NCBI RefSeq assembly: GCF_002865645.1
Contig: NW_020194628.1
Location: 2,289,587 to 2,353,586, forward strand
Direction: 5' to 3'
From: Hyaloscypha bicolor E
Lineage: Eukaryota; Ascomycota; Leotiomycetes; Helotiales; Hyaloscyphaceae
DNA: 64,000 nt
Positions 13,664 through 62,687 of the stretch are shown here, piece after piece. The position numbers and the translations under genes are program-made. Position 1 is the first letter of the stretch. The number at the start of each line of letters is the position of its first letter. The notes beneath the pieces are model-generated. The model saw nothing but the letters and a program-made list of their open reading frames with translations. It ran no database searches and was not told the DNA's origin.

Positions 13664-14184
13664 TATTAGTTTACTAGAAATATATAATATAATATATAAT
13701 ATATATAAAATACTTAATAAATAAATTAGTAAAATAATTATAATATTATAATATTAATATATAATTTCTAAATCTATTAAGCCTAATAGAAACTAGTTAC
13801 TAATTAAATTATTTATAAGATATAAAATTATATAATTATATTTTATATTTTATTATTTATATTTTATTATTTATATTTTATTATTTATATTTTATTATTT
13901 ATATTTTATTATTTATATTTTATTATTTATATTTTATTATTTATTTTTATTATTTATAATTTATTAATTATATATTTAATTATATTTATATTTATATTTT
14001 ATTATTTATATTTTATTATTTATATTTTATTATTTATATTTTATTATTTATTTTTATTATTTATATTTTATTATTTATATTTTATTATTTATATTTTATT
14101 ATTTATATTTTATTATTTATATTTTATTATTTATATTTTATTATTTATATTTTATATTTCGAGTTTTATAATTATATATATAAC
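13664..14184 (-). repeat. 5' LTR of copia V, split by copia II/III
   Basis: Minus-strand LTR whose end (CTAATA) is at 13664. Its first 26 bases are absent here and are found instead at 55812-55837, next to copia III. The split point is duplicated as ATAAC (14180-14184) and GTTAT (55838-55842), so copia II/III inserted into this LTR. Most of its length is an expanded 14-bp tandem repeat. Confidence 0.8.
13840..14155. repeat. expanded 14-bp AT tandem repeat inside an LTR
   Basis: Roughly 20 units of ATTTTATTATTTAT with a few interruptions (about 13935-14000 and 14050). On the other strand it corresponds to the AATAGAATATAGGT units present only 3-4 times in the copia I LTR, so this is an LTR minisatellite expansion after RIP. 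Confidence 0.9.
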
Positions 14185-14468
14185 TATTAGTTTACTAGTA
14201 ATATATAGTACTATTATATAGATATAAAATACTATTTATATAAAATTAGTAAAGTTATTATTATTTAGAAGTAGGAATTATAAATTATAATATTAATATA
14301 TAATTCCTAGATCTACTAAGCCTAAAGAAGTCTAGTCTACTTATCGAGTTATTTATATAATATAAGGTTATATAACTATATTTTATATTTTATATTCTAT
14401 TACTTATATCTTATATCTCGTATCCCGTAATTATATATATAACTTCTAAAGAAATAACTATACTAATA
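14185..14468 (-). repeat. 3' LTR of copia II/III
   Basis: 284 bp, exactly the length of the copia III 5' LTR (55843-56126). On the plus strand it starts TATTAG and ends CTAATA. It is flanked by ATAAC (14180-14184), the complement of GTTAT beside the partner LTR. Confidence 0.88.
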
Positions 14469-14591
14469 CTAGAACCTTTTTAAAAAACGCGAAAAATAGT
14501 ATTTCTTTCCAATTATATATAAATTCCCTAATTCGGCCTAGTACCAGATTTCTCAAATACTTTATATATCTATATTGCTTTTAAGGTTTTA

Positions 14592-14627
14592 GTTATATAC
14601 TAAAGGCTATAGCCTTTTATATATAAC
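14592..14627 (-). repeat. 36-bp near-palindrome, copia II copy
   Basis: Same unit and same relative place as in copia I, upstream of the 3' LTR. The centre reads GGCTATAGCC. Confidence 0.85.
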
Positions 14628-14639
14628 TTCCCTTCTTAT

Positions 14640-17334
14640 AATATTCTTCTATTTTATATATTTATTTCCTATTCTATTTATACTTAATCTATTTCTCTAT
14701 ATTTAATTATATAGTATTTATATTAATTAGGTATTTAAGGGTATTTATTAGCTTTAATTTCGTTATAAAATTAGCAGAATTTGATTCTTTCTTAATCTAT
14801 TTAACTTCTATAATCTCTTATTATTTATATATCTAATAAAGATATATTATATTAATTATTAGATACTTTTTTTAAGTAATTCCTAATTTAATAAAGTATT
14901 TATATAATAATTTCGAATTTATATAAACTACTAATAATAATTCTATTTCTAGTATTTTATTAATTATAGATTTAATTAAAGCGCTTATATTAAAGTTATA
15001 AGCTATATTATAGAGTTTTAAAGCTAGAATACTTCTAATAACTCTCTTATATTTAGTAGAGAACTAGTAAATAATATTAGTATATCTAGTTCTATTTACT
15101 AGAACTAGAATATATCTGATTTAAGAGAAAAAATCTCTATTATTTATAAATAAAGCATCTGTAAAAATAATTAAATATAAGAACTTCTTTACTAGTTTTA
15201 TAAATCTTAATTTTCTAGCAGTATTTTTAATTTGCTATTAAATATATTTATTAAATATTTTTATATTAATTTCTAAAGATTTAATAGCTTAAATAATAAT
15301 TAATAGATTATATAAAGCTTCTGGTTAATAGACTAATATAATATATACTTTTCTAGTATATTAGATAATATATTAGTTTTTAATAAAGAAATATTAATAA
15401 ATAGTATTTTTATTACTTATAATAGTAGTATTTTTTATAGAAATAATTCAGAGGTTTTTATACTAGTATTTTTATATAAGAGTAATTCTAGTAATATCTA
15501 TATAAATAATACTTTTATTAAACTTGAGATTATAATTAAAAGTAAAGTATTTATACTTTTTAGCTAAGAACTTAGCCTTTTAAAGCTTTAGTTACTTTGC
15601 TTTTATAAAATTATTAGTTCTAATAAATAGAGTATTATTAGTTTAAAGACTAATAATTCTAAAGAGTTACTTATTATAAAGAAGGCAAGAGTTATAAATT
15701 AATTATTCTATAAAAAGCTTATTAATATAATAGAAATAATAAGTTTTAAACTAATAGTTTCTAGCTTCTAATATATTATATAATAGTTTTATAATCTTTA
15801 GAATAGAATTATTCTTTAGATTTAGCTTTCTAATAAGCTTATAAAGTAAATTAATATAAAAATTATAGTTAAATAAGGTTATTAATTAGATATAAGCTTG
15901 CAAGATATTATATAAATATAATTTCATAATATCTATTATTATAGTAGTAATATTAAAGATAATTCTCTAGCTAATATATTAAATAGTAAGTAATTATATT
16001 AATACTATATATTTCTTATTGTTATTATAAGCTTAAATAACTAGTCTCGACTTTTTAAACTCTCTTTCTATATTCTTATTTTTAATCTTATTAATAAACC
16101 GGAAGTTAAAAATATATATCTTTTTTAGTATCTGAAATCTGGAAATAATCTTAAATATAATCTTTTCTAAAAGGCTAATAACTTTAATTTAGTAGAAATT
16201 CTTATATAAATTATTATTTTATAGAAATACTATAAAATCAGGGTTCTTATAAGGGCATTCTCTATTATACTTTAGTAAAATAGCAGAAATAGTAAGAGAA
16301 ATTATATCTATATTACTTTTAGTCTTATTATAAAGTTTAGAAATAGTTTCAGATTTAAAGCTATTAGTAATAACCTTAATATTTCCTATATAAAAGAGAT
16401 TTACAGAAATTAAATAGAAGATAATATTATTATATAATAGAGCTAATATATAGTTCTTTCTATTAATAGCTACTAGCTTATATAGCCTACCTTAATTACT
16501 AGATTAACTAGTATTTCTTTTATATTATATAAGAATATTCGAATTTAAAGAAAGTTTATAGATATTAGTAATACTAGAACTATTTCGGATATTTAGGGTA
16601 TTTGTAATTTAATATCTAGTTTAAAGCTTCTAAATTTCTACTATTATCTTTTTAAGTACTACTAATTACTATAATATAGTTAGTAATAAGGTATTATATT
16701 TAATTATTTAAAGTAAAGTACTATAAATTAAAAGAGTTAAAATAATACTATTAAGTTTTATAGAATTATTAATAGCCTTAAAAGCTATTTGAAATATAAT
16801 ATTTTTATTAATTTTATTAATTTCGGCTATAATAATAAGATAAATATATTAAATAGGGCTATAGTAGTATTTTATAATTCTAATAGAATTATAAGCTTTT
16901 ATAAAAACGATTTTAATTTTAGTTTCTATAATATTTATAAGTTAAGCGAATTTCTTATTAGTAAACTATTTTCTAATATCTATTATAATCTAATTAAAAG
17001 AGCCTAAATAGATATTAATCTAATACTATTTTAGGGCATTTCAAATATATAAAGTACTAATATTCTAAAGCTATTAGCCGGCTTAATATCGAGTACTTTT
17101 ATTAATAATATAAAATATAGGCTTATTAGAAATATAGAAAATATTAATAATAATAAAGTAATTAAAGCTAATATTATTTCTTAGATTAAACTTGAATTAT
17201 TCTAGTAATTATTCGAATTTCTGGTATTACTTATAGTATTTTATAAAGTATTTAAAAGCTTTTATATTAATATTATAGCTTATTTATTCTAGTATATTTC
17301 GGAGTTTACTAATAAATAAATAACTAAAATAGTA
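14640..17334 (-). pseudogene. copia II pol remnant: integrase part, RT, RNase H
   Basis: The minus-strand translation parallels copia I pol from the GAG-pre-integrase region to the RNase H C-terminus, with more RIP stops. Reverse transcriptase lies around 15500-16250 and RNase H around 14680-15350. Short plus-strand open frames here (for example 16789-17007) are antisense shadows. Its gag and protease lie 40 kb away in copia III. Confidence 0.8.
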
Positions 17335-17339
17335 ATATA

Positions 17340-17504
17340 TATTAAATATAGTTATATAATATATTATATATATATAACTATATATAAGGCCAACTAGCCT
17401 ATATGGATATATATATAAGGTGGGCTCTATTTATCTCTTATTCTATAAGAAATTAATTAAGATCTGACTTACTTATATATATATATATATATATTTATTT
17501 AATA
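17340..17504 (+). repeat. 5' LTR of G2
   Basis: 165 bp, begins TATTAAATATAG and ends ATTTATTTAATA, giving inverted tips TATTAAA/TTTAATA. ATATA (17335-17339) precedes it. It matches the reverse complement of 61695-61855. Confidence 0.85.
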
Positions 17505-18378
17505 AGTTATAAGCCCGGCGACTTCTATAGAGCTAAGTTATCTAATCTAATTTATTACTTTATAAACGGATGATTCTAATCCAAAAGTGCTTGGTTCTAT
17601 AAGCCTTTATACAGAATTAAATTAAGGATATAGATCCCTTAATTACTATTAAAATTACCGAGATACTAGATCTCCTTCTTATCTTAAGAAATAATAGATA
17701 TAATCCTCCGGATATCCTCGGATTCACTTAGTAATTCATACCTTATATAAAAGAATTAATACGAGCTTTCCTTTATTTCCGAAACTAATGAATTAATTAT
17801 TCTTACGAGCTATTCTTATCTCCTAACCTCCTAATATTAGAGTTTTCTATTAGTTCAAGAGCTATACGAATACTAAAACACTAGTAGACCCGATAATACG
17901 GTTCTAGTATATTTTAATTAATAAGAATTCTAATATTCTAATTTCTAAACTTATCTACTTCTTTTATTAACTAATCTCTCTGTTTTACTTGACTAATAAT
18001 AGAACAGATAGTCGAAGAGCTAATAGCCCAAAAGCTATAAGCGGTCTTAAAGCAGGCGTTTCCTATAAATGAAACGTTTATTTTATTAAGAAATACTCGA
18101 ACCCGCAGAATTACTTAATTACGAGATATACTTCTTTTTAACCCGACCTGTTTCCTTATTATATATATACCCTTATTAATACTCTAATTAAATCCTTTAA
18201 TACTAAATCTAATTGAGACTCTAATTCCAATTATACTAATTTAGAAATCGAACCTCTTTCCTCCAAATATACTTATCCAGATACTAAGGCCTTAAGCTCT
18301 CTGAGCCCTAGATCTCTATTACCTATATTCCTCTTTGATTATTAAATTAAGACCTGGAATATAGATATATAGGCAGCC
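17505..18378 (+). pseudogene. G2 leader and start of gag
   Basis: The sequence after the LTR starts AGTTATAAGCCCGGCGAC, a possible primer-binding region that I cannot assign to a tRNA. From about 18060 a frame rich in Ser, Pro and Asn with few stops runs to the L1 insertion and appears to continue after it (24407). This fits a disordered gag N-terminus. No conserved motif is visible, so the gag call rests on position. Confidence 0.5.
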
Positions 18379-18512
18379 AACTTTTTTCCGGTTTTTTTAC
18401 CCCCCTTACTTTCACACCCACACTTTACCCACCTTCAGAACTCACTCAATATACCTTAGCCCTTTGGCCCCAGGCTCTAGAACCTACTATAAGTAGAGCT
18501 AGAACAGGCTAA

Positions 18513-20141
18513 ATGGCCCCCCCTGATCCCCCGGGCTCTAGCCCCCCTCCCATTGACTTTTAAGAGCTCGGAGAGCTTCCAGAGGGCCCTAGCAAATAGC
18601 TAGACCTACCTACTAGCTCCCTACTAGCTCGGTTCAGCCAGGGAGCTTAATTCGCATTCGATTTAGCTATAAATCCCATCTCTTCAGACGAACTCGCAGC
18701 CCCTTTTCCTTAGCCTAATTCAGCTAGTGCGGCTCGACTGAGCCGCCTCCAGAACGGGCTAAAGCATGGCCCTAGCTTAAGCAATATTAATAGTAATATT
18801 AATAAGAAATACCAAAACTACGGAAACTACTACTAATATTAGAATCAAGCTTTAAATAAAGCTAAATTACTAATTTGTCAAGCCCGGGACTTAATAGTCA
18901 AAGCTATTACTATTACTCTATTATATGACTAGTAATCTCGACTACTAGATTTAGTAGAAATCTTTAGAGAATATACTGAATTCGGCCATATCCGCTATAC
19001 TAGTACCTTACTAGCCTCCCAGGTAGCGAACCTCGAAAATGCCACTAAACGGATCGAAATTCAGTTAAGAACTCAAGCCAAACTAGCTACTCAAGCTAAA
19101 ACTACCTCCGAAAAGCCTACTTGGGCTAAAATCGCTACTCAAGAACCATAATCTTATTCGGAAAAGAACTAGACTATAGTATTATATACTAAGTCCAAAA
19201 ATCAGAGAGGAAAAGGCCCTAGTATACTTACTAGTAGCGGTAATACTCGTAATACTAATAACCCACTTAGTACCCGTAATACTAGTAGTTCTAGTACTCG
19301 TAATACTAGCTTGAAATCTATAGCCCTCTCTAGGAAAAGCACCTTCCTACTAGCTTATATAAAGCAGGCTAGCTTATTCTCTGCTATTTCTATTTATAAT
19401 TCGCTTAATACTACTTTCTGCTCTAAGGGAATTAAGGAACTAGTAATCTCTATAGTTTCTCTTTCCTTAAAGAGTAATATTATAATTAATACTACTCCCG
19501 AATTCAACTCTGACTTTCTGGTTCAAAATCAAGCTATTATAAAAGGAGTGCTTCTCTTAGTTACAAGTATATAAAAAGGAAAACCTTAATATAAAGTTAT
19601 TATTTATAGTCTACTAATTTATAAGTTTAATATACCCGAAGAAATAAACTTAGTCCTAGAAGAAATCAAGACCTTTAATAAGGGACTAGAGCCTATTAGC
19701 CAGCCCTATTAGGCTACTTTTAAGGAGAAAAGAGACTTAGGCCTCTAGTAAGCCGGTTTAGTAATAGTAGTATTTCCTATCGAGATTCAAGCTAATAGAG
19801 CTATTAAAAATAGACTTCTTATAGCCGGGATCTTTACTAAAGTAGTGAAATACTATACTATTTCTAGTACTATATAATATACTAGATATATAGGATACAG
19901 GCACTTAGATTCTATTTATAAAAAGAAACCTAAGTATTTACTATATAGTAAGGGTTATATAACTAAGAACTATTTTTGCTTTATCTATAAAAAGAAGAAT
20001 AAAAAATGCCCCTATATAACTACTAAATACTCTAATTATTTAAGTACTACTTACTCAGCTAGTTCTAAGCTATATAAGGTTTACTTAGTAATTAAAAAAG
20101 CTACTACTATTATAATTCCTATTATTACTATTAATAAGTAG
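18513..20141 (+). pseudogene. L1 ORF1 (gag-like) remnant
   Basis: Starts MAPPDPPGSSPPP, as in L3, with the first RIP stop at codon 17. The length of 543 codons is a multiple of three from start to stop, so decay is by point mutation with no net frameshift. The C-terminal half carries what were Cys/His zinc-knuckle motifs (about 19900-20090), most ligands now Tyr. ORF1 proteins of this clade bind element RNA; that role is inferred from the family. Confidence 0.8.
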
Positions 20142-23100
20142 CTATATTAAAGTACTATAAGTTAATATGAATTATAATAGCTCTATTATTAAAAACGTCT
20201 TATAAATAGCTATAGAACTAGATATTAAAGTCTTAGTAATCCAGGAGCCTTAGGTAATAGCAGGAAATAATAATCGGGAATATTATTCTATTATATACTC
20301 TAGCTATTTCCAAATACTCCCGAATTATAATACCCTGAGGCCTAGAACCCTATTTTATATAGCTTGCGAACTATAAGCTAGTCTAGCCTCAAACTTACTA
20401 AGTAATCCTAATTACTTAATTATAGACTTAAGTCTAGGTATATTAAAAATATAGCTAATTAATTTCTATAATATAATTTACCCAGAAAACCCTAATAGTA
20501 TATTAACTATATTAAGAGAGGACATTTTACTTATTACTCTCTATAATAGCTCTCTATTACTAGGTGATTTTAATATATATTATCCTTAGTAGGATTTCTT
20601 TAAATCTTAAAATAGTTATATAGTTTATTTAATTAGCTATATAGAGAACTATTCTCTAAGGCTATTAAATAAACCAGGGAAAGATACCTTCTATAGATCT
20701 AATATATCCACTCCTTCCGTATTAGACTTAAGTTTTGCTACTAGTGAAATAGTAACTAAGATCAAAAACTGGCAAGTACTACTAGACTTAGGTTCTAATT
20801 ACTTTGGGGTACTATTTACTATTAGTAAGTCGACTTATAGCTCTAGTTCTAATCCAGTCAGATTTAATACTAGGAAAGCGGACTGGGCTAAATTTACAAG
20901 CTACCTTATTAATAGCCTTAAGAATATGCCTTTTCTATTTACTAGTATACCTGGAAACCATAAACTAGACCTATTAATAAAAGACTTTACTAATAGAATA
21001 GTAGAAGTAGCTAGTAATAGTATTCCAAAATCTACTACTAGTCCGTATTCTAAACCCTAGTAAAATAAGGACTTAAAAACCTTATATAAATTAATACTAT
21101 ACTATAGCTATAAGTCTAAAGCTTTAGGGTATACTTTCTATAAATAAGAACTTCAAAATATAAAAAATACCTATTTTAATACTATTAAGAATACTAAGCT
21201 AGTATATTAGAATAAGTTCTTAGAAAATAAAGACTTCTAGTTAATTTTTAAAGCTATAAAATATACTAAAGATACTATATATTAACCTATTCCTAGTATC
21301 TTAGATAGTAATTCTAATAAGCTTAAATTAACTTTCTAAGAGAAATATAATATCTTTAGAACTATGCTTTTCCTATTACCCCCTATTACTAAGCCTACTA
21401 GTTTAATAAACTATAGGCCTAGCTCAAAATAGGACTAGTCTATTTTATCTAAAATAGAGCTAGAATAAGCCTATATTTCTGAGATAAAGGAGAAAACCCC
21501 AAGACTAGACTTAGTTACTTAAGAGATTATAGTTCATACTTATAGAGCTTTTTCAGATATCTTTTATAGGCTATATTCCTTATTTATTAATAAGAAATAC
21601 TACTCTAAAGTCTGGAAATAAGCTACTAGCTTTATTCTAAAGAAATCAGGGAAACTAAACTATTCCCTACCTAAAGTATATCGAGTTATTTCTTTACTTA
21701 ATTATTTAGGAAAGGTTTCTAAGAGAATACTAGCTAGATAACTTAGTTATTTAGCCGAGACTAGTAACCTACTATACTATTCCCAAATAGGAAGTAGGCT
21801 CTATAAATCAGCTATTAATACTACTTTACTATTATAAAATAAAGTAGAATTAAATAAGTCCTATAAGCTAAAAACTAGTACTTTCTTCCTAGATATTAAA
21901 GGCGCCTTTAATTACGTATTCAAGAATAGGCTATTATAGATTATAATTAGTTTACTACTACCTATTAGCCTTATTCTCTAGGTATTATTATTCCTAGATA
22001 ACCGAGTATTATAACTAGCTTTTAATAATAGTATTAAAGTATTTAGGTCTATACTTACTAGTATTTTATAAGGTAGCCCTATATTCCCTATATTATTTCT
22101 TATCTATATTCGAGACTTATTTAAGTTAGTAAATATTAAATTCAGATCCTATTTAGATAATATATTCCTTATTACTGCTTCTAAAAGTCTAAAGAAAAAT
22201 ATTAAGACTCTAGAAAGAGAAATAAAAGATATAGTTAATTTAGGGAAAAAGAATACTATTAGCTTTAATATAGATAAAACAGAGCTTATTTATTTTAATA
22301 ATTCCAAAAATAAGCCTAGTCTAAAACTACCTAATAGAGAACTAGTTTCCCCTAGTAAAGTAATTAAATAACTAGGGATCTATTTTAATAAAAATCTCAG
22401 ATTTAAGAAATATATAGCCTATAGGGCTTCCAAAGTAAAACAAGCCTTTTATAGGATATAGAGACTTACGAATATATTATATGGTTTATTTCCTTTTATA
22501 ATTAGATAGCTATACTTAGCCTGTATTACTAGTATAATAGACTATAGTTCTATACTATAATAAAAGACTAAAAACAAAGCTCAAATTCGGCCTTTATAGG
22601 CAATTCAAAACCTAGTCCTAAGGAAAACCCTAGGAGTATTTAAAACTGCTCCTATTATTTCTATAGAGGCCAAATTAGCTTTAGTTCCACCTATTATAAG
22701 GCTAAACCATAATTAATGTTATTATGCCTTCCGTATCCTTAAACTAAGTCTAAAATACCCTATTAGACTAGAGTTCGAGAAGTTCTTTTAAAGATCCCGT
22801 AATTTAGAACTAGTAGAATCTAATATAGACTCTATTTATAGTCTAAATACTAATCTAAAGCGAAATCGCATGGCTAAAAAGTCTCAAGTAGAAACTATAG
22901 TAAACTTTATTAGTAATCTAATAGACCCTAAAGACCTAAAAATTATAAGACACTTTTATTTTGCCCCTTGGAATAGAGAAGTGCCTTATAAAATTACTAT
23001 ATTAAAAGAGCCAAAGAAAGAAACTACTATATTATATAACTTTTATCTAAAGACTTTATATAATAATAGCTCTATACTATCTATATATATAAATAGATCT

Positions 23101-24150
23101 CAAACTAAAAAAAAACTTGAAGTAGGCCTAGGGCTCGTAGTTTATAGTTACGAAACTTCTTATATTCCGGTTATAGCTAAATATAGAGAAAGCCAGAATA
23201 TAGAAGCTAGTACTATAGTCTATAATAAAGAACTAGAAGGCGTTACTAGAGCTATTAAGTACGCTAGTAATAAAGCAAAGAGAGGAAAGCTTTTTAATAT
23301 CTTTATAGATAACCAAGCTAGTTTACTAAGATTAAAAACTCCTTCTAATAAGCCAGGACAAAGTTAATAGATTAGAGCTATACTAGCTACTAAGGTCCTT
23401 AAAGCTAAAGGAGCTAATATAGAACTAATCTGGGTTCTAGGGCATATAAATATAATAGGAAACAAAGAAGCAGACGAACTAGCTAAGCTAGGCACTACTT
23501 CTCCTATATTAGAACCTGAATTAGTAAAAACCTTTTTTGCTTTCCTAGGGATTAAAATTAATAAAGTTAAGAAACTAGAGTATAGACTACTTTTAGAATC
23601 TTATACTAAACCGAAAACCCAGCTAGAATTATATAGTAATATATATCCGTGGAAAGTATTCAGAAAGATAAACTTATCTTTAGGAACTTTTAGGCCCCTA
23701 GCTAGTGCCTTCTTCTAGCTAAAGCTAGGCCACGGATATTTAAAGTCCTATTTATATAGGCTAAATATAATATCTAATAACAAATACAAATACGGAAAGA
23801 CTAAGAATACAAAGCACTTCCTTTTATATTATATATTATATAAAGAGGAACGACTTAGACTATTTAGTCTATTTAAAGGAAGCTTGGAAGCTAGTGCTTT
23901 TAACCTATAATTACTATTATATACGAAAATTAGAATATTAAATATACTAGTATTCTTAAAAGAAACTAGTATATATATAAGAAAATGGCATATTAAGCGA
24001 AGTATAGAAGTAGAAGAAGTGGAAATAAGAGAGGAAATAGGAGAGGAAATAGGGGAGGAAATAAGGGAGGAAATAGGAGAGGAAATAGGGGAGGAAATAG
24101 GAAAGGAAATAGGAGAGGAAATAGGAGAGGAAATAGGAGAAGGGAAATAG
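20134..24150 (+). pseudogene. L1 ORF2: endonuclease, RT and RNase H remnant
   Basis: 1,339 codons. The start codon, which overlaps the ORF1 stop in L3 as ATGAGTAG, is ATAAGTAG here. In order: an APE-type endonuclease (about residues 1-230, with a GDFN block), reverse transcriptase (about 480-760) with FLDIKGAF and the active site reading YLDN, RNase H (about 915-1130, open at 22870-23367), a Cys-poor remnant of the terminal knuckle, and a GEEI tandem at the C-terminus. The overall length is kept in frame despite many TAA/TAG codons. Confidence 0.85.
24021..24141 (+). repeat. 12-bp coding tandem repeat (GEEI) at the L1 ORF2 C-terminus
   Basis: About ten units of GAGGAAATAGGA encode EEIG. Copy number and composition differ in L2 (28120-28190), L3 (31530-31690) and L4 (62940-63020). 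The reverse-strand open frames over it are shadows. Confidence 0.9.
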
Positions 24151-24406
24151 GGAAAAAGGGAAAAGGGAAATAGGGAAAAAGAGAAAAGGGAAATAGGGAA
24201 TAGGAGAGAAATTGCAATTTATACTCATTTTTTCTTTATTTCCTTAAGTTTTTATTTCAGGGATATGTCCCTAACTATTTACTACCTATATTGGAATTTG
24301 GGCCTATATATAAGCTACTAAGACTCATACTAGCTTAGCTAGCCATACTATATAGTTCTAAACTAATAAAGCATATTAAAAGAAAAAAAAAAGAAGAAAA
24401 AAAAAA

Positions 24407-27865: not shown

Positions 27866-28101
27866 AAATCTATTTATTTTTTTATTTTTTATTTTTTTTC
27901 CTTTTAATATACTTTATTAGTTTAGAACTATATAGTACGGCTAGCTAGCTAGCGTGTATCTCAGTAGCTAATATATAGGCCCAAAATCCAATATAGGTAT
28001 AATAAATAGTTGGGGACGTACCCCTAAAATAAAAACTTAAGGAAATAAAGAAAATGAATATAAATTGCAAATCCTTTCCTATTTCCTATTTCCCTTTTCC
28101 C

Positions 28102-31100
28102 CTATTCCCCCTCCCCTATTTCTACTCCTATTTCCTCCCCTATTTCCTCTCCTATTTCCTCCCCTATTTCTACCCCTATTTCTACTTCTTTTACTTTCAC
28201 GCTTCGGTCTATATGCCATTTTCTTATATATATACTAGTCTCTTTTAAGAATACTAGTATATTTAGTATACTAATCTCCGTATATAATAGAACTCATAGG
28301 TTAAAAGCACTAGCCTCCAAGCTATCCTTAAATAGACTAAATAGTCTAATTTGTTCCTCCTTATATAGCTCGTAATATAAAAGGAGGTGCTTTGCATTCT
28401 CAGTCTTCCCACATTTACATTTGTTATTAGACGCTATTTTTAGCCTATATAAATAGGACTTTATATATCCGTGGCCTAGCTTTAATTAGAAGAAGGTACT
28501 AGCTAGTAGCCTTAAAGTTCCTAAAAATAACTGTATTTTCTTGAATACTTTCTATAGATATATATTACTATATGATTCTAGCTAGGTCTTTGGTTTAGTA
28601 TAAGATTCTAAAAGTAGTCTATACTCTTATTTCTTAACTTTATTGATTTAGATCCCTAAAAAAGCAAAGGAGGTTTTTACTAATTCGGGGTTACCTAATA
28701 TAGGGGAAGTAGTACCTATTTTAGCTAGTATATCTGCTTCTTCGTTCCTAATTATATCTGTATGGCCTGGGATCCAGATTAGTTCTATACTAGCTCCTTT
28801 AGCTATAAGGGCTTTAGTGGCTAGTATAGCTCTAATCTATTAACTTTGTCCCGGCTTATTAGAAGAAGTTTTTAATCTTAGTAAACTAGCTTGGTTATTT
28901 ATATAGATATTATAAAGCTCCCCTCTCTTTACTTTACTACTAGCATATTTAATAGCTCTAGTAACGCCTTCTAGTTCTCTATTATAGACTATAGTACTAG
29001 TACCTATATTCTGGCTTTCTCTATATTTAGCTATAACCGGTATATAGGGAGTTTCGTAACTATAGACTACGAGTTCTAGGCCTATTTCAATTCCTTTTTG
29101 AGTTTGAGATCTATCTATATATATAGATAATATAAAGCTATTATTATATAAAGTCTTTAAATAGAGATTATATAATATAGCAGTCTCTTCCTTAGGCTGT
29201 CTTAATATAGTGATTTTATAAGGTACTTCTCTATTCCAGGGAGCAAAGTAAAAGTGTCTTATAATCTCTAAGTTCTTAGGGACTATAAGTTCCTTAATAG
29301 AATTAACTATAATTTCAATTTGGGACATTTTAGCCATATGATCTCGAACTAGATCTATATTTAGACTATAAATAGAGTCTATATTAGAGTCTACTAATTC
29401 TAATTACTTAGATCTTTGGAAGAACTTCTTAAACTCTAGTCTAATAGGATAATTTAGACTTAATTTAAGAATACAAAGAGCATATTAGTAATAACTATGG
29501 TTTAGCCTTATAATAGGTAAAAGTAAAGCTAATTCGACCTCTATAGGAATAATAAGAGCCGTTTTAAATACTCCTAAAGTTTTCCTTAAAGCTAGGTTCT
29601 AAATAGCTTATAAAGGCCTAATTTGAGCTTTATTTTCAGTCTTCTACCATAGTAAGGAACCATAGTCTATTATACTAGTAATATAGGCTAAATATAGCTA
29701 TCTAATTACAAATGGGAATAAACCACGTGATATATTCGTAAGTCTCTGAATCCTATAAAAGGCTTGTTTTGCTTTAGAAGTCCTATAAGCTATATATTCC
29801 TTAAATCTGAGATTCTCATTAAAATATATTCCTATTTACTTAACTACTTTACTAGGGGAAACTAGTTCCCTATTAGGTAGTTTTAAGCTAGGTTTATTCT
29901 TAGAATTATCGAAATAAATAAGCTCAGTCTTATCTATATTAAAGCTAATAGTATTTTTATTTCCTAGATTAACTATATCCTTTACTTCCCGCTCTAAAGT
30001 CTTAGTATTCTTTTTAAGGCTATTAGAAGCAGTAATAAGGGTTATATTATCTAAATAGGACTTAAAACTAACGTTTACTAATTTAAATAGATCTCGGATA
30101 TAGATCAGGAATAGTATAGGTAATATAGGACTCTCTTATAAAATGCTAGTAAGTATAGACTTAAATACTTCTATACTATTATTAAAAGCTAGTCTTAATA
30201 CTTGGTTATCTAGGAACGATAATACCCAGAAAATAAGGCTAGTAGGTAGTAATAAACTAATTATAATCTATAATAGCCTATTCTTAGACACGTGATTAAA
30301 GACACCTTTAATATCTAGGAAGAAAGTAATAGTTTTCAGCTTATAGAACTTATTAGTCTCTACTTCATTCTATAGTAATAAAACAGTATTAATAGCTAAT
30401 TTATATAGCCTATCTCCCATTTAGGAAGAGTATAATAGGTTACTAGTCTTGGCTAAATAACTAAGTCTCTTAGCTAATATTCTCTCAGAAACCTTCCCTA
30501 AGTAATTAAGTAAGGAAATAACTCAATATACTTTAGGTAAGAAATAGTTTGGTTTTCCTGATTTCTTTAAAATAAAGCCAGTAGCTTATTTCCAGACTTT
30601 AGGGTAGTATCCCTTATTAATAAATAAGAAATATAGCCTATAAAAAATGTCTGAAGTAGCTTTATAAGTATGAACTATAATCTCTTAAGTAACTAAGTCT
30701 GGTCCTGGGGTTTTCCCCTTTATCTTAGAGATATATACTTATTCTAGCTCTATTCTAGATAGAATAGGCCAGTTTCACTTTAAACTAGGCCTATAGTTTA
30801 TTAGGCTAATAGGCTCAGTATTAGGGGGTAATGGGAAAAGCTTAGCTCTAAAGATATTATACTTCTCTTAGAAAATCGACTTTAAATTACTATTACTACT
30901 ATTACTATTATTTTTATTATTACTATTTAAAATACTAGGGATCGGTTCATATAAGGTATCTTTAATATATTTCATAGCTTTAAAAATCGACTAGGAGTCT
31001 TTATTCTCTAAGAACTTATTCCAATATACTAGCTTAGTACCTTTAATAGTAATAAAGTAGGTATTCTTTGCATTTTGGAGTTCTTATTTATAAAAAGTAT

Positions 31101-31285
31101 ACCCTAAGGCTTTAGACTTATAGCTATAATATAGTATTAATTTACGTAAAGTCTTTAAGTCCTCATTTTACTAGGGTTTAGAATATAGACTAATAGTAGA
31201 TTTTGGAATACTATTACTAGCCATATTCACTATTCTATTAGTAAAGCCTTTAGCTAATAGGTCTAATTTATGGTTTCTAGGTATA
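28102..31285 (-). pseudogene. L2 ORF2, 3' part: RT, RNase H and C-terminus
   Basis: Reverse transcriptase (about 30700-29850, active site YLDN) and RNase H (open at 28840-29337) match L1 and L3. The C-terminal GEEI tandem is short. A trinucleotide-like ACT/TTA expansion at about 30885-30930 lies between the endonuclease and RT regions. Together with the 5' piece the frame is not a multiple of three, so L2 has at least one net indel. Confidence 0.82.
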
Positions 31286-31518
31286 TTTTTTTTTTTTTTT
31301 TTTTTTTTCCTTTTAACGTGCTTTATTAGTTTAGAACTATATAGCACGGCTAGCTAAGCTAGCGTGAGTCTCAGTAGCTTATATACAGGCCCAAATTCCA
31401 ATATAGGTAGTAAATAGTTAGGGACATATTCCTAAAACAAAAACTTAAGAAAATAAAGAAAAAATGAGTATAAATCATAATTCCTCCCCTACTTCCTATT
31501 TCCCTTTTCCCTTTTTCC

Positions 31519-34500: not shown

Positions 34501-35565
34501 TAGCTTAGTACTCTTAATAGTATTAAAATAAGTATTTTTTACATTTTGGAGTTCTTATTTATAGAGAGTATACCCTAAAGCTTTAGACTTATAACTATAG
34601 TATAGCATTGATTTACGTAAGGTCTTTAAGTCCTCATTTCACCAGGGTTTAGAATACGGACTAGTAGTAGATTTTGGAATACTATTACTAGCTACTTCCA
34701 CTATTTTATTAGTAAAGTCTTCTACTAATAGGTCTAGTTCATGGTTTCCAGGTATACTAGTAAGTAGAAAGGGCATATTCTCAAGGCTATTAATAAGGTA
34801 GCTTGTAAATTTAGCCCAGTCCGCTTTCTTAGTATTAAATCTGACTGGATTAGAACTAGAGCTATAAGTCGACTTACTAATAGTAAATAGAACCCCGAAG
34901 TAATTAGAACCTAAGTCTGGTAATACTTGCCAGTCTTTAATCTTAGTTACTATTCCACTAGTAATAAAACTTAAGTCTAATACGGAAGAAATAAATATAT
35001 TAGGTCTATAGAAGATACCTTCCCCTAGTTTATTTAATAGCCTTAGAGAATAATTCTCTATATAGCTAATTAAATAAACTACATGACTATTTTAAGATTT
35101 AAGGGAATCCCACCAAGGATAATATATATTAAAATCACCTAGTAATAGAGAGCTATTATAGAGAGTAGTAAGTAAGATATTCTCTCTTAATATAGTTAAT
35201 ATACTATTAGGGTCTTCTAGATAAATTGCATTATAGAAATTAATTAGCTATATTTTTAGTGCACCTAGACTTAAGTCTATAATTAAGTAATTAGGATTAC
35301 TTAGTAAGTTTGAGGCTAGACTAGCTTGTAGTTCGCGAGCTATATAAAATAGGGTTCTAGGCCTCAGGATACCGTAATTCGGGAATATTTGGAAATAGCT
35401 AGAGTATATAATAGAATAATATTCCCGATTATTATTCCCTGCTATTACCTAAGGCTCCTGGATTACTAGGACTTTAATATCTAGTTCTATAGCTATTTAT
35501 AAGACGTTTTTAGTAGTAGAGCTATTATAATTCACATTAACTTATAGTACTTTAATATAGCTACT
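31519..35565 (-). pseudogene. L3 ORF2: endonuclease, RT and RNase H
   Basis: 1,349 codons, starting MSSYIKVL at 35565 inside the overlap ATGAGTAG with the ORF1 stop. The endonuclease shows LGDFNIYYP and a conserved SNPVRF region. RT shows FLDIKGAFNHV, where the second half keeps His, and YLDN at about 33541-33555. RNase H is open at 32386-32832 and carries an IYID block, a family YTDG turned to YID, plus ELEGVTRAIEYAS. The enzyme would nick DNA, reverse-transcribe and remove RNA. Reading stays in frame despite RIP stops. Confidence 0.88.
31530..31690 (-). repeat. L3 C-terminal coding minisatellites (GEEI and EEV)
   Basis: About six 12-bp GEEI units are followed (plus-strand order) by about ten 9-bp units TTCTTCCAC/TTCTTCTAC, encoding EEV on the minus strand. 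L1, L2 and L4 have at most three of the 9-bp units. The plus-strand Leu/Pro-rich open frame over it is a shadow. Confidence 0.9.
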
Positions 35566-46984: not shown

Positions 46985-47273
46985 TATAATACGGCAGGCT
47001 ATACTTATTAAAAATTATATTATTTTAGTAGTTTTAAGATTTAGGTTATATAATAAAGGCTATAGCCTTTTATATATAACTTGCGGAAATTATATAAGAA
47101 AGCTAGTTTTTCTATAGACTTAGAGAATAATTCTTTATAAGTATTTAATTAATTAAGCTTTTATATACTATATACTATTTATACTTTTAATTTATTATTT
47201 TACTATCAAGTCACGTTTTATACTCTAATATACTTTATATGGGTTTTTGTCTTATTATAGTTTCTTTCTTATA
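46985..47273 (+). repeat. N-family LTR, copy A
   Basis: 289 bp, starts TATAATACGGCAGG and ends TTTCTTTCTTATA. It matches solo copies B (59385-59688, -) and C (59978-60280, +). It lacks a flanking duplication, so it is taken as the 3' LTR of N; the 5' LTR was not found. The N frame continues about 30 codons into the LTR, seen best in the less mutated copy B. Confidence 0.75.
47045..47080 (-). repeat. 36-bp near-palindrome, LTR A copy
   Basis: Same unit inside the N LTR, centred on GGCTATAGCC. Confidence 0.85.
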
Positions 47274-47345
47274 CTAGCTATACTATATAGTTTTAAACTA
47301 ATAAAATATATTAAAAGAAAAAGAAAAAAAAAGAGAAAGAAAAAA
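47274..47345 (+). mobile_element. L5: 5'-truncated LINE tail
   Basis: About 45 bases match the 3' end of L1 (ACTATATAGTT...ACTAATAAA-type block), followed by an A-rich tail of about 30 bases. It starts at the outer edge of LTR A. This fits a severely 5'-truncated insertion of the same LINE family. Confidence 0.75.
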
Positions 47346-53798: not shown

Positions 53799-53814
53799 CC
53801 CGAAATATTTCGGG
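53799..53814. repeat. perfect 16-bp palindrome
   Basis: CCCGAAATATTTCGGG, at the right edge of the putative foldback element. Its GC-rich arms stand out in this AT-rich region. Confidence 0.95.
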
Positions 53815-55811: not shown

Positions 55812-55842
55812 TATTAATATAGTTATTTTTTTTAAAGGTTAT
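55812..55842 (+). repeat. start of the split copia V LTR
   Basis: TATTAATATAGTTATTTTTTTTAAAG-type sequence (26 bases) equals the LTR start missing from 13664-14184. It is followed by GTTAT (55838-55842), the target duplication of copia III. Confidence 0.75.
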
Positions 55843-56126
55843 TATTAGTATAGCTATTTCTTTAGAAGTTATATATATAGTTATAAGATATAGAATATAA
55901 GATATAGGTAATAGAATATAAAATACGAGATATAGTTATATAACCTTATATTATATAAGTGACTTAATAAGTAGACTAGACTTTTTTAGGCTTAGTAAAT
56001 TTAGGAATTATATATTAATACTATAATCTATAATTTCTATTTCTGAATAATAATAACTTTACTAACCTTATATAAATAATATTTTATATCTATATAATAG
56101 TATTATATATTACTAGTAAACTAATA
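55843..56126 (+). repeat. 5' LTR of copia III
   Basis: 284 bp, TATTAGTATAGC to CTAATA, preceded by GTTAT. It is the same length as 14185-14468. Confidence 0.88.
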
Positions 56127-56800
56127 CTAATTAATTTATATATATAGATTAGAGAAGATTTTAGATTAGTTCTAAAAGTATTTAGTAACTTAAAATAAAT
56201 CTAGTTTATTCTATATTAAAGAAGAGAACTATTTATTAATTTTATAAAAGTATTTAATAACTTATAAAAAAGATACTAGCTCTTACTAATTAATAAGTAG
56301 TTAGCTATTTAATTATCTATCTATTTAACTTCTACTATTCTTTAAAACTAACTTCTTTTAGTTCCAAAATTACCTTTTTAGAAACTATCTTTTTTACTTA
56401 TATAATATTTATATTTATAGAATTCTCTTTCCGAAATATATATCCTATATATACCTTTAAAGCTTTTTAACTACTACTTCGATTTTACTATTAAATCGAG
56501 TTCTTTAAGCTTTAGATTCTTCTAGAATTATAATATTTCACTTCCTAAATTTCTTATTACAGATGAAATATTTAAGAGCAAAATATTTACTTTAATATCC
56601 TTAATACTTCTAGATATCTAGGGTATCTAATATCTAAACCAGATATCTAATATCTTAACTAGATATCTAAACCAAGTATCTAGATATCTAGATATCTTTA
56701 TTACTAAACTCTTTTTATAAACCTATTATAAACTATCTTATCTTTAAATTCCTTCTATTATAAATTATATATATATACTAGAGAAAATCTGAATTCGGTT
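56127..56800 (+). other. copia III leader
   Basis: Aligns with the copia I and copia V leaders, with an extra segment at about 56580-56700. It contains no coding frame. Confidence 0.6.
56612..56697. repeat. cluster of five AGATATCT palindromes
   Basis: AGATATCT occurs at 56612, 56641, 56661, 56682 and 56690, within TCTAAACC-containing repeats. It is absent from the other leaders, so it is a local insertion or expansion. Confidence 0.85.
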
Positions 56801-56802
56801 TA

Positions 56803-58897
56803 GTATAAATATAGCAAAAACTCGCTATAGTAATTCCTAATATAGGTAGTAATATCCTTAGTAATATAATACGGCCGTATGATTCCGTACTTTTTTAGCC
56901 TAAGGCTTATAATATTCTTAGTATTATGATTATTATAAGGTTTTTCGGTCCCACTCTTAATTTTTGGTAGTCTATTATTCTACTTTAGCTTGAAAATGGA
57001 TTAATTTATTAATACTTTAGGGCCCTCTAGTATCTCTCAGGCTCTCGATCTCACCGAATTATAGTTCCTTAATCTTACCTCTGGTTCTCTAGCCCCTAAA
57101 CAGCCCAAAAAAAGACGAAGAGGTATAATAGAAGCTAATTGCCGAATACTATAGAGGTATAAGTAATCCTATCCTAAAGCTATATATACTAATCTTATTA
57201 AGTGATTTCAGGACAAGTACTATTATAAAATTAACTAGTTTACTATTTCCCTTTGCCTTAGTACTTAATTCGATTACCTTAATACTAATATACGAAAAGA
57301 TATAAGCCTTACGAGTCAGTATTCAAGCTAATCTAATTAGCCAGATCTTGAATTAGTACTCTTTAAATAGTAGTAGAAGATATAAAGGCAGAAGGCAATA
57401 ATTACGGGCAATATTCTTAAGCAGAAGGCATATAATATCTGGTATCTTCTTCTCTAATATTACGAGTAGCCAGAGCCCAAATAGTCTAATAAATAGTTAA
57501 CTAATTTTAAGAACCGCTTCTATATTAAGGAGTTCGTTTACTATAGTAAAAGCGGTACGGCAGACATTAATAGTCCTGAGAATATTAAGTAAATATAAGA
57601 GAATCAAGATCTGGCAGCCATATACTCTCCTGAAAACGTCTTGAATATAAATAAAACTAGTTTATACTAGAAAATATTACTAAATCATACGCTAGTAACT
57701 AAGGCTAGTAATAGGGGCAAAAAAAGTAAAGAGCGAATTACTCTTACTCTTATAATTAATACTACAGGTACTAATAAGTAGGAGCCTTAGTTAATTAGAA
57801 AGAATAAGAACCCTTGGTATTTTAAGTATATTAATTATCGACTTTTGGATATATAATATTAGTATAATAATTCCAAGTAAATAACTGGTATTATCTATAT
57901 AGAATACCTCTATTAGCTCAATTACAAGTATTCTACTTAAGGCCGGTATATTCTTCTTTTTATAAATAATTTCTTAGGGTATAAATATAGTATTAATCTT
58001 ATTAGTAGAAAACAAGCTCTTTCTTATATACGAGTGAAATAGCTACCTCCCAATATGACATTATATTAGTAACTAGTAGATCAGAGTATTATTAATACCT
58101 TTAAGCTTTATTATTACAAGTAATAGATTGGCTATATAATTAAGTAATTTGAGGCGAATAAGAATTCTAATAAAACAGTCACTCTTCTCTATATAATTAA
58201 CTGGGCAGTATATACTTGGAATAACCATATTAAAGCTTCTATAATTACTAATTACTAGTACAAATCAAGTCTTATTACAAAACCTCTCCTTGGTAGAGAT
58301 CTTAATACCTATAGTAAACTGGACGAGGAATAGGCTACTTAATAAGCAAAAGACAAGGAAACTATTAAAGCCCTTTAATTAGCTATTTAGAGTACTACCC
58401 AATTCAATAATCCTCTTCCCATTAGCCAATTTATTATACTAATTAACGAGGCAATCGTGGAAGAAGAGAGTATAACTCTAGAGGTAATTATAAATTACTA
58501 TACTCAGGGAGGTTCAGGGAATTAGTCTAATATAGAGCGGGAGGAGCAGGAGGAAGAGATTAGGGAAGTGAAGCTAGCTAAAGTAATAGCTATACTTGAT
58601 TTGGTAAATCTTTATGAGAAGTAATAGGAGGATAGATAAAGTGAGGTTATATATAAGCTTAATGCTTTAAAAGCTATATTTACCCAAAGAAAGGTTAGGA
58701 AAGCAAAGCAGGCTTATTTAGAGCTTTCAGGAGGTACTTTACAAGTAATAAGGCATTAGGATTAAGAGGTTCTTTATATATCTTTAGTTCTTCCTTATTT
58801 ATTATATATATATATAATTCTTAATTTAATAATACCTCGGTATATTATTAGAAAAAGGCGCTAAAATTAATATTACTATAGCGAGTTTTTACTATAC
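56803..58897 (+). mobile_element. Fot1/pogo-type DNA transposon
   Basis: 2.1 kb. Terminal inverted repeats share AAAAACTCGCTATAGTAAT (left about 56809-56834, right about 58872-58897), and both tips (GTATA) are flanked by TA (56801-56802 and 58898-58899), the target used by Tc1/mariner/pogo elements. It encodes one transposase. It is less RIPped than the copia it sits in, so it arrived later or was hit fewer times. Confidence 0.85.
56996..58765 (+). pseudogene. Fot1/pogo transposase remnant
   Basis: 590 codons in one frame from ATG at 56996. A CENP-B-type helix-turn-helix lies at about residues 30-100, after a basic PKKRRR stretch that may be a nuclear signal. The DDE domain follows. Catalytic residue 1 is in NINKTSLY (residue 219), where the family has NMDETGLY, so Asp became Asn. 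Residue 2 is in FINNFLGY (residue 324; family MDNFSGH), also Asn. Residue 3 is Asp 362, retained. The C-terminus is acidic then basic. Numerous TAA/TAG codons inactivate it. The end is uncertain because several stops cluster. Confidence 0.85.
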
Positions 58898-59384
58898 TAA
58901 TAAGGAAAAGAAGCTAATTAAGAAATAAAAGAATAATATTAATCTAGTAATTATAATAAAGGCTAATTTTTAGAAATATCTGACTACTAAGATATATTAG
59001 TATATTTTATATAAAAAAAGTAATAATAATCTATAGAATCTATTCTAGAATAACTTTAAAAACTTTAATATTATAATATATAATCTAATTAACTATATAT
59101 TTATATAAAATATTCGAGTTTAACTTTAATATAATAGTATTTATATTAAATAAAACTATAGAAATCTTACTATTATATAATTCTTTATTAACTTTACTTA
59201 AGAAAAGATAAAAAGTATATAGAATAAAGCTAATATTATTAATAATAGTCTAATTAGAATAGATCTTTTTTAGAAACCTATTATATTAGTTTATTTTATT
59301 CTAAATAAAACGAGATATAAGAAAACTAGATATTTTTAGTCGAGAAATTAAGCTATCTATTTATTTCTTCTAAATTGAGGCTAT
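58898..59384 (+). other. remaining copia III leader/gag 5' sequence
   Basis: By position it lies between the leader and gag of copia III. I could not align it convincingly with copia I, and no frame is clear. CTAT (59381-59384) is the left target duplication of solo LTR B. Confidence 0.4.
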
Positions 59385-59688
59385 TATAAGAGGGAAACTA
59401 TAATAAAATAAAAACCCACATAAAGTATACCAGAGTACAAAACGTAACTTAATAGTAAAATAATAAATCAAAAGTATAAATAGTAAAGCATAAATAGTAT
59501 ATAGTATATAAAAGCTTAATTAATTAAATACTTATAAAGGATTATTCTCTAAGTCTATAGAAAAACCAGCTTTCTTATATAATTTCCGCAAGTTATATAT
59601 AAAAGGCCACAGCCTTTACTATATAACCTAAACCGCCAAAACCGCCAAAACAATATGATTTTCGACGAGTATAGCCTGCCGTATTATA
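59385..59688 (-). repeat. N-family solo LTR, copy B (least mutated)
   Basis: 304 bp in reverse orientation, flanked by CTAT on both sides (59381-59384 and 59689-59692). It retains CpA/TpG sites lost in A and C, for example the CCGCCAAAA pair. The LTR-internal end of the N frame would read with an FGGFGG-like stretch. Confidence 0.85.
59592..59627 (+). repeat. 36-bp near-palindrome, LTR B copy
   Basis: GTTATATATAAAAGGCC then the inverted arm ending TATATAACC, followed by TAAACCGCC. The flank TAAA(A)CC is shared with the copia copies. Confidence 0.85.
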
Positions 59689-59977
59689 CTATCTACTACT
59701 TCTATTTTTACTATTACTAGTATTACTACTAAATTCGAACTTCTATTAATTAATACCTACTATTACTACTAAAAAGCTTATTAGGGAAGTAGTAAAGATA
59801 TACTTTAAAATATAGAAATATAATAGAATTAATAATAGTTTTAATTATAAACTTACTATTTTCCTTAATATCTACTAATATATAAAGCTTCTAGAAAAGA
59901 TACTAGTAAGAGCTTTTCTTATTATATTAAAGAAACTAGTATAAAACTATTTCTATAATAATTAGCTCTCGAGCTAT

Positions 59978-60280
59978 TATAGTATAGCAGGCTATACTCT
60001 TTAAAAATTATATTATTTTAGTAGTTTTAAGGTTTAGGTTATATAGTAAAGGCTATAGCCTTTTATATATAACTTGCGGAAATTATATAAGAAAGCTAGT
60101 TTTTCTATAGTCTTAGAGAATAATTCTTTATAAGTATTTAATTAATTAAGCTTTTATATATTATATACTATTTATATTTTACTATTTATACTTTTAATTT
60201 ATTATTTTATTATTAAGTTATGTTTTATATTCTAGTATACTTTATATGGGTTTTTGTCTTATTATAGTTTCCCTCTTATA
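59978..60280 (+). repeat. N-family solo LTR, copy C
   Basis: 303 bp, flanked by CTAT on both sides (59974-59977 and 60281-60284), inserted in copia III gag. It is in opposite orientation to B, 289 bases away. Confidence 0.87.
60038..60073 (-). repeat. 36-bp near-palindrome, LTR C copy
   Basis: Same unit inside LTR C. Confidence 0.85.
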
Positions 60281-61694
60281 CTATATATATAAAAAGGCCT
60301 ATATAAATATCTATAGCTTCTTTAAAAGCTCCGGTTTCTATTATAAAAATTTAGATAAATAGAATACTATTACCTTAATAACTATAATAGTAAAAGATTC
60401 TAAAAAGACAATATTTAAGCTTATCTAAATACTAATTAATAACTTATATAAATTATAATATAGCCTTATTTCTGCTTTATAAAATACCGAATTCCTATAT
60501 AATAAGATTATTATCTCTTATTAAAGCTTACTAGTATACTAATATATAGTCTCGAATTCTTCTAATAAACTTAGCTAGCTTATTAATAAGCTCTAATTAT
60601 CTATTACTATTTATAAAAAGAAGTAATAAATTACTACCGAAATCTATTTTACTAATTAATAATACTATTTTCAAAACTCTTTAAACTACTATTTATTTAG
60701 AAATTATTAATATAAATCCAGCTATAACTTTAGAACCTGTAATAACTATTTCAAGTCTTATAATTATAATAATTATATTTCGAAGTTATATTTTATATAT
60801 AAGAAATCCGAATACTATTTATAGAAATATATATTAGAAGAATAAAAGGCTAAAAAGACTTAATTTAAGAATAGAAATATTTACTAATTTAGATTCCGAA
60901 ATATCTATAACTTTAATAAATACTTTAATAATACTTATATATAGTATATTATTAAATTTAAAAAAGAAAAGAATAATAAAAAGAATAAAAATAAACTAGT
61001 AAATAATACTTTTAAAGCCTTACTAATAGAAATAAATAAAGGAAAGAAATATTATTTAGATTTTTATTTCACTTCTATTAAAAGCTTCTTAGCTACTTCT
61101 ACTATTTCTATAACTAATATTCTTATAAATAACCTTATTTCTCTTTCTTTTATATATTAGATAATAGGCGAAAACTATATCTTAAAGCCTATTAAATAAA
61201 TAAAAGATATCTAGATATTTATAATTAATAATATATTAAAATATAATACTTATTACTTTTATAAAGTTATAATTAATAATAGAGCTTTCAGATTTTTAAT
61301 TACTAGTTCTAACTAATTCCAAGCTTTATAGTATATTAATAATAGTATCTAATTTAATAAAACTACTAAAGATTAAATTAATATATAGTTTAGTATCGGA
61401 TTTATATTCTCTATTAGATTTATAATAATAAGAATACTAATTAGGCAAATATAATTCTATATTATATTTATAAAAACTCTATTTCTACTTAGCTTAGCTA
61501 ATATAAATAAGCTAGAGATCTATTTTAATAATCTTACTAATTATTTTATTATTTCTACTAGATATTTTATACTTATAATATAATGTTTTAGATACTTTTT
61601 CCTGCTTTAAAATACTATATTATAAAGCTTTATTTCCGAATTCTTTATTTATAATTCCTGCTTTTTTATAAAGATTAAATTATAATATTTATAT

Positions 61695-61855
61695 TATTAA
61701 ACGAATATATATATATATATAAGTAGGTTAGATCTTAATTAATTTCTTATAGAATAGGAGGTAGGCAGAGCTCACCTTATATATATATTTATATAGGCTA
61801 GTTAGCCTTATATATAGTTATATATATATAATATATTATATAACTATATTTAATA
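61695..61855 (-). repeat. 3' LTR of G2, inverted relative to the 5' LTR
   Basis: 161 bp, plus strand TATTAAACGAAT to CTATATTTAATA, the reverse complement of 17340-17504. TATAT (61690-61694) precedes it and matches the ATATA beside the left LTR. Confidence 0.85.
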
Positions 61856-61867
61856 CTTCTACTCAAG
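61856..61867 (-). other. likely polypurine tract of G2
   Basis: Minus strand CTTGAGTAGAAG directly upstream of the LTR start. This marks 61695-61855 as a 3' LTR on the minus strand. Confidence 0.55.
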
Positions 61868-61941
61868 AATAGTACTAGATAAAACTAGTACCTCCAAGTA
61901 ATCCTAACTATATAAAATATAAAGGTAAAACAAAAAGTAGC

Positions 61942-62684
61942 TTAGATAATACCTTTCCTTACTTCCTTAGTAGCCTGCTTTACTGCCTTCCTTTCTTTCT
62001 TCTCCAGATACTTCTTCTCTCGTTTAGCTACTAGCTTCTAATCTCTTTCCCTTATATATCCTTCTATATTAAACTAATTTCGAGAGGTATTAGGTAAGGA
62101 GCTCTAAGAAGTAGTAAACGAGGGCCTAGTAAATAAGGGTTCGGTAGTAAACGATTTAAAAGCCGGAGGTATTAGTGCTTTAAGAATAGAAGGACTCGGA
62201 GGGCTTAGTATATAAATTATAGGGGGGTCTAGAGCTAATTAGAGCTGCGAGAAGTATATTAAAATACAAGAAGAAATAGATACTAGATCTTCTAAAGCAG
62301 ATAATAAGCCTTTAGTAAAGTTAGGGAAAGCAGGAACTAGAACTATTATAATCTCCTCCTCTATACCTAATCTATTAGATATAGGTACAGGAAAGCAATC
62401 TATAGAGAGTAGTTTAAATAGTTCTATTAAGGGTATTAGTAAGTTCAGGTTTATATTTTCTATATTTATTCCCGACTATTCAAGTTAATAGGTAATTATA
62501 TTATTATTAAAGACTAGCTCATACTTTCTATCTGCTATAGCTACCGTAATATCTCTTACTTAATCCGGAACCGGTATTAAGACAATATTTAGGTAGCTTG
62601 TTTTCTAGTAAAGAGTAAAAGGAACTAGCCCTATAGGAAAAGTAGAATAAGAGCGAGATTTAAAGGAGAACTATAATCTGAAGC

Positions 62685-62687
<3 letters not shown>
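61942..62687 (-). pseudogene. G2 3'-terminal ORF, unknown function
   Basis: Minus-strand frame of about 248 codons, entering from L4 and ending at TAA (61942-61944), with under ten internal TAA/TAG. The central part is Pro/Ser-rich. The C-terminus is a Lys/Glu/Arg-rich helix (AKREKKYLEKKERKAVK). It lies just before the polypurine tract and 3' LTR of G2, so by position it belongs to G2 downstream of integrase. I recognise no domain. It is less mutated than the rest of G2, which is odd if both are one element. Confidence 0.5.

Follow-up and report, generated by a model that had tools for sequence, protein, structure and literature searches.

We analyzed a nest of transposable elements (TEs) in the fungus Hyaloscypha bicolor E, in which a copia-type long terminal repeat (LTR) retrotransposon, copia II/III, lies in two halves facing opposite ways, together with pieces of a second LTR element, G2. 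The window, the whole stretch of DNA that was analyzed, is 64,000 nucleotides long and covers bases 2289587-2353586 of a 2.4 Mb contig (C51) in an assembly of 82,041,658 bases and 76 contigs. Positions above 64000 extend the window numbering along the contig, of which a region of ~172.8 kb, one stretch of N included, was examined. The stretch is repeat-rich, its longest stop-free frame within the window is 191 amino acids, and it is AT-rich, with dinucleotide ratios of 1.44 for TpA/ApT and 0.33 for (CpA+TpG)/(ApC+GpT). These ratios are as repeat-induced point mutation (RIP) would give. Because RIP produces transitions only, transversions and indels were taken as the evidence of descent.

The copia and G2 pieces in the window, and the divided LTR of a further element, copia V, are as follows.

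13664-14179, minus strand: copia V 5' LTR lacking the initial ~30 bp, with an expanded 14-bp tandem repeat
14180-14184: copia II/III target duplication ATAAC, complement of GTTAT at 55838-55842
14185-14468, minus strand: copia II/III 3' LTR, 284 bp (LTR alignment)
14469-17339, minus strand: copia II/III interior, 3' half, its final five bases (ATATA) being the G2 target duplication
17340-17504, plus strand: G2 LTR, left side
17505-18373, plus strand: G2 interior to about position 1586 of the L055 copy
55812-55842, plus strand: head of the copia V LTR (~30 bp), with the target duplication GTTAT at its end (55838-55842)
55843-56126, plus strand: copia II/III 5' LTR, 284 bp (LTR alignment)
56127-61694, plus strand: copia II/III interior, 5' half, its final five bases (TATAT) being the G2 target duplication
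61695-61855, minus strand: the other G2 LTR
61856-62689, minus strand: G2 interior from about position 8186 of the L055 copy, ending in the target duplication of LINE d
62679-62689: LINE d target duplication AACTCGCTTCA (minus strand)
62690-64000, minus strand: 3' end of LINE d, a long interspersed nuclear element (LINE) inserted in G2; it extends beyond the window end, with G2 continuing on its far side

A copia element in two inverted halves

The copia at 14185-17339 (minus strand) and that at 55843-61694 (plus strand) are one element, as had been proposed in an earlier note on this DNA. Both LTRs match over 284 bp, the outer flanks are ATAAC and GTTAT, and both inner ends, with ATATA and TATAT beside the G2 LTRs, read as that note gave them. 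When the last 150 bases of each half were aligned to 11 other copia loci (L044-L054; 39 other matches were listed), the half-ends overlapped by exactly 5 bp in all 11, which is the length of the proposed G2 target duplication, and their meeting is thus not due to chance. Between the two LTRs there are 29 transitions, with no transversions and no indels, whereas each of them differs from six other LTRs by 1-7 transversions and 1-16 indel columns. The partner LTR was also the top match in a genome-wide search (382 bits versus 371 for the next). The realignment therefore places the partners closer to each other than to any of the six other copies tested. A Pfam scan of the broken copia II/III and copia I pieces yielded nothing useful.

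The start of the copia V LTR, reported as absent at 14179, was indeed found at 55812 next to GTTAT. The segment 55812-55842 matches positions 1-30 of this LTR, the sequence running leftwards from 14184 matches from position 26, and the two parts have GTTAT in common. Mapping to four further LTR loci gave the same division, with the head at 1-30 in all four and the rest beginning at position 26 in three and 27 in one. The copia V interior runs on leftwards from 13663.

Two side observations concern these LTRs. The 14-bp tandem repeat forms a long run at 13836-14150 of the copia V LTR, whose whole length is ~540 bp; by comparison, 40 full-length matches in the genome-wide copia LTR search measured 279-300 bp. 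Inside the right-hand copia half are two LTRs of the G3 family, another LTR element, in opposite orientation (59380-59688, minus strand; 59978-60289, plus strand). Copia sequence and no G3 interior lies between them, and they look like two solo LTRs.

One nested element in four pieces

The segment 17505-18377 matches one end of G2 copies elsewhere and the segment 61856-62687 the opposite end, with a single match on the contig for each. With the copy in L055 (the same copy as L020/L032) as a ruler, the rest of G2, which the earlier note suggested seeking beyond the right G2 LTR, was found as two further minus-strand pieces past the window end, and the element is tiled as follows.

546-1586 of L055: 17330-18373, plus strand
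1577-5907 of L055: 109364-105029, minus strand, beyond the window
5904-8197 of L055: 74942-72642, minus strand, beyond the window
8186-9195 of L055: 62693-61682, minus strand

The order is the same with L056 (the copy of L022/L033) as a second ruler, with the last three pieces in sequence on the minus strand. G2 is therefore a single element, present once in four pieces, of which three are inverted and two lie outside the window. The overlaps between pieces are target duplications, with 12 identical bases at a LINE that we call LINE_a, 4 at an LTR element, G3-right, and 10-11 at LINE d. In other G2 copies, with the rulers' own copies in the test, the edges at LINE_a are adjacent and share the duplication in 10 of 11 cases (the exception, L030, had no real match for one side), and the edges at LINE d are adjacent in 11 of 11 (in L040 one side aligned over 85 of 150 bases only). 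Since the four pieces tile in this way and their edges adjoin in other copies, G2 changes strand once, at LINE_a. Three once-continuous sequences, copia II/III, G2 and the copia V LTR, are thus each split here into parts of opposite orientation.

The G2 LTRs themselves are less telling. A first alignment of 17340-17504 with 61695-61855, a comparison also put forward in the earlier note, gave 13 transitions, 3 transversions and 4 gap columns, the transversions all sitting in the TA-rich tail; an alignment penalizing transversions gave 13 transitions, no transversions and one 4-base gap in that tail. The pair is thus compatible with a common origin, but this does not decide the matter, as four of six other G2 LTRs also have no transversions to both, and the LTR of L022 is nearer to the left G2 LTR (8 transitions) than is its partner (13). 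The label "gypsy" given to G2 in the earlier note is not supported, and no gypsy-type match was found in the frames scanned. Of seven short and badly broken G2 frames scanned, one weakly matched RVT_2, the reverse transcriptase domain of copia type, over 37 amino acids (E 0.0055, below the Pfam cut-off) and the other six had no relevant Pfam match. Protein motifs gave two matches in translated frames, one of them copia-like and in G2. The element thus looks copia-like.

It could be argued that there were two separate copias, each of which took up its own G2 at an identical position and later lost the half that the other kept, and both families do have further copies in the genome. Under this history both copias must have used one target and both G2 insertions a site identical to the base, the copia V LTR must have been split alike each time, and the LTRs must show no transversions between them. 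It is moreover contradicted by the single-copy tiling of G2, in which pieces do not overlap beyond their target duplications, and we consider it extremely improbable.

A second candidate for a split G2, on contig C70, has ends on opposite strands 50 kb apart. Its flanks differ (AATAG versus ATATT), one matching another LTR element and the other matching none of the sequences it was compared with, and by that test it is not a second case.

Oppositely oriented LINEs at the strand switch

The features around the strand switch are these.

18362-18373: LINE_a target duplication TAGATATATAGG, 5' copy; its partner lies inverted at ~109355-109366, outside the window
18374-24406, plus strand: LINE1, 6 kb, a putative hybrid with G2 as its 5' flank and G3 as its 3' flank; the left breakpoint would lie inside it
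109368-112255, minus strand: LINE4, whose 3' end adjoins G2 with TAGATATATAGG

The two copies of TAGATATATAGG are ~91 kb apart and inverted relative to each other. In a table of 11 LINE 5' flanks against 10 LINE 3' flanks, the 5' flank of LINE1 matched the 3' flank of LINE4 at 12 of 12 bases and scored 4 against its own 3' flank. For LINEs m, n, d, q and r, the 5' flank scores 11-13 against the 3' flank of the same element; LINE5 scores 10 with itself, and LINE p 6, with no clear duplication. The remaining cells reach 9 at most, apart from one unexplained score of 10 (LINE3 5' flank versus the 3' flank of r). Elements of this family have A tails, target duplications of 10-15 bp and weak endonuclease and reverse transcriptase matches: among seven frames scanned, Exo_endo_phos_2 was matched in two (best E 7.5e-5) and RVT_1 in one (E 0.032), all below the Pfam cut-off, and the remaining frames had no relevant Pfam match.

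LINE1 and LINE4 are homologous elements (89% identical over 2945 aligned columns) in opposite orientation, one at each proposed breakpoint. LINE1 can also be aligned with LINE n over its whole length (91% over 6056 columns). No seam shows along LINE1 between its G2 flank and its G3 flank, as expected after homologous recombination between inverted LINEs. We further compared sequence states in the family, of which 137 candidate copies were found and 40 scored. Diagnostic sites were purine/pyrimidine class differences or indels between two sets of copies, with state N set by n, q, r and LINE3 and state P by p, to which s2 was added for the 5' part only; the definitions did not draw on LINE1 and LINE4, which were then scored. 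In 21464-24406, where state P is that of the single copy p, LINE1 is in state N at 33 of 34 sites and LINE4 in state P at 32 of the same 34. The 3' end of LINE1 is thus not that of LINE_a, and belongs to another LINE, LINE_b, that sat in G3.

Inverting the interval between LINE1 and LINE4 restores the whole stack, with LINE_a in G2, G2 in copia II/III and copia II/III in copia V, in one step. One breakpoint would accordingly be placed in the LINE at 18374-24406 and the other in the LINE at ~109.4 kb, ~45 kb past the window end. This differs from the earlier note, which had put them at 42.4-55.8 kb and just beyond 62.7 kb; the G2 tiling and the LINE_a duplication place them elsewhere.

Along LINE1, all 11 sites up to 19391 are in state P, and 37 of 38 from 20250 are in state N. 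We gave up this switch as the crossover point, as the same pair of indels occurs, by match length, in 10 of the 39 other scored copies. No fewer than three sequence types (P, N and the m type) occur among the LINEs, and the P-N indel combination is common to 11 of the 40 scored copies by match length. The family itself may contain mosaic lineages.

Neighboring elements

24407-47273, plus strand: 3' part of G3-left, interrupted by LINEs and ending in its 3' LTR (~46985-47273)
27877-39908, minus strand: two nested LINEs, m (27877-31285 and 37334-39908) and n (31286-37329), each with its own target duplication

Directly after the G3-left LTR, 47274-47343 holds ~70 bp of a LINE 3' end, and G3-left itself seems to have been inserted near the 3' end of a LINE. 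Outside the window, at 76706-84171 (L014, L015), LINE3 (minus strand) starts inside LINE2 (plus strand) and ends in G3. LINE3 has no matching duplication of its own (score 6), and ~2.5 kb of G3 and the rest of LINE2 are missing there; a deletion by LINE-LINE recombination is possible, and is offered as a lead only. LINE5 (112254-117483; L017, L018) has LINE4 on its 3' side and a further LTR element on the other. It looks mosaic, its 5' part being in state P and its 3' part resembling LINE m.

Discussion

Our combined findings suggest that a segment of ~85-94 kb was very probably inverted by homologous recombination between oppositely oriented LINEs, after a series of nested insertions, as read from the assembly. 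The locus holds a single nested stack that switches strand at LINE_a, whose target duplication is split over ~91 kb with its copies inverted. In the proposed order, copia V would have inserted first, followed by copia II/III in the copia V 5' LTR with duplication of GTTAT, then by G2 in copia II/III with duplication of TATAT, and then by LINE_a in G2 with duplication of TAGATATATAGG. LINE_a would then have recombined with LINE_b, a member of the same family in opposite orientation within G3, and everything between the two LINEs would have been turned round, namely the remainder of G2 with the copia II/III 5' half and the copia V LTR head. The three insertions, and a subsequent inversion that split both the copia and the LTR element nested in it, had been put forward in the earlier note, and are supported by the tiling, the half-ends, the edges, the LTRs and the split of copia V. 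We infer that the crossover was reciprocal and that the inversion exists in the living genome and not only in the assembly.

An assembler may have crossed between two LINE copies and joined the wrong sides, in which case the inversion would exist only in the assembly; misassembly was also allowed for in the earlier note. Both proposed breakpoints do fall in copies of a family with 137 candidates (40 scored), and the present order is that of the assembly. Nonetheless, the breakpoint LINEs are only 89% identical and the best other copy reaches 94% over 1089 bases, differences that reads of several kb resolve, and the contig is 2.4 Mb long. A misjoin by itself would presumably also not lose the 5' flank of LINE_b. 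We regard misassembly as unlikely.

That flank is among several points that weigh against a simple inversion. The start of G3-left, expected to come with a duplication beginning GCCTAGTAAG, was not found in the ~172.8 kb examined, part of which reads as N, and the reciprocal joint therefore cannot be shown. We considered LINE2 (76706) as the missing 5' part of LINE_b and rejected it: at 9 places common to two match lists (the best 40 matches each), its site in G3 lies 526-529 bp upstream of that of LINE_b. Also, LINE4 ends where LINE5 begins, and LINE5 has its 5' side in a different LTR element. At LINE5, a deletion through recombination of two directly oriented LINEs would explain the missing flank, and is a lead only; the LINE5 flanks share 10 bp, which argues for a plain insertion instead, yet the two sides are in different elements. 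Finally, the switch at 19391-20250 does not locate the crossover and may be inherited; if the crossover lay at the switch or further 5', the other joint would be in the now-missing part of LINE4.

These features might instead suggest that the break in LINE_a was part of a complex rearrangement, a translocation or an inversion with a deletion, of which one of two joints was kept. The missing LINE_b flank would fit, as would the truncation of LINE4 at a mosaic-looking LINE5 whose far side is another LTR element. However, both parts lie on one contig, ~91 kb apart and in opposite orientation, which a single inversion explains, and a later deletion at LINE5 would account for the missing flank. A complex rearrangement is thus unlikely, and inversion between LINE_a and LINE_b remains our preferred explanation.

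Inverted copies of a retrotransposon are known to give rise to inversions through ectopic (non-allelic) homologous recombination, and in TE classification superfamily I comprises LINEs. As in other such inversions, the proposed breakpoints lie inside oppositely oriented copies of one element, and the target duplication is mismatched across the left hybrid and pairs with the other breakpoint. The event is read here from a single genome through nested insertions rather than from a comparison of strains, and the reciprocal joint was not found. In filamentous ascomycetes, retrotransposon-mediated inversions are mentioned for Aspergillus niger (PMC3441728), where likewise retrotransposon-mediated recombination is linked to inverted genomic regions; the mention itself carries no element type or coordinates, and the present case lies in a repeat-rich stretch with no frame beyond 191 amino acids. 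Ectopic recombination among TEs is described in Cochliobolus heterostrophus, which like the present case combines recombinant TE sequences with RIP (PMC4112212). In the part of that account that concerns superfamily I, its groups are among those with events, and three of five such groups had none (PMC4112212). Recombination there was inferred by sequence-mosaic programs, whereas here the order of the pieces and the target duplications reveal the strand switch (PMC4112212). No paper on the present locus was among those listed in literature searches. The kind of event is thus already known in fungi, and the record of it here is unusually complete.

A broader and rather doubtful possibility is that this TE island records repeated LINE-LINE recombination, in the form of one inversion and possibly of two deletions, one at LINE3 and one at LINE5, RIP-like mutation having driven the copies ~10% apart. 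If so, recombination would take place before RIP acts, or would tolerate ~10% divergence, and the nested target duplications would allow the order of events to be worked out.

An inversion can be established from one assembled genome, without a comparison strain, through nested insertions and the target duplications that they leave. The present case also has a bearing on the coexistence of repeat recombination with RIP. Here one breakpoint would be placed within one LINE, and the inversion ordered after three or four insertions.

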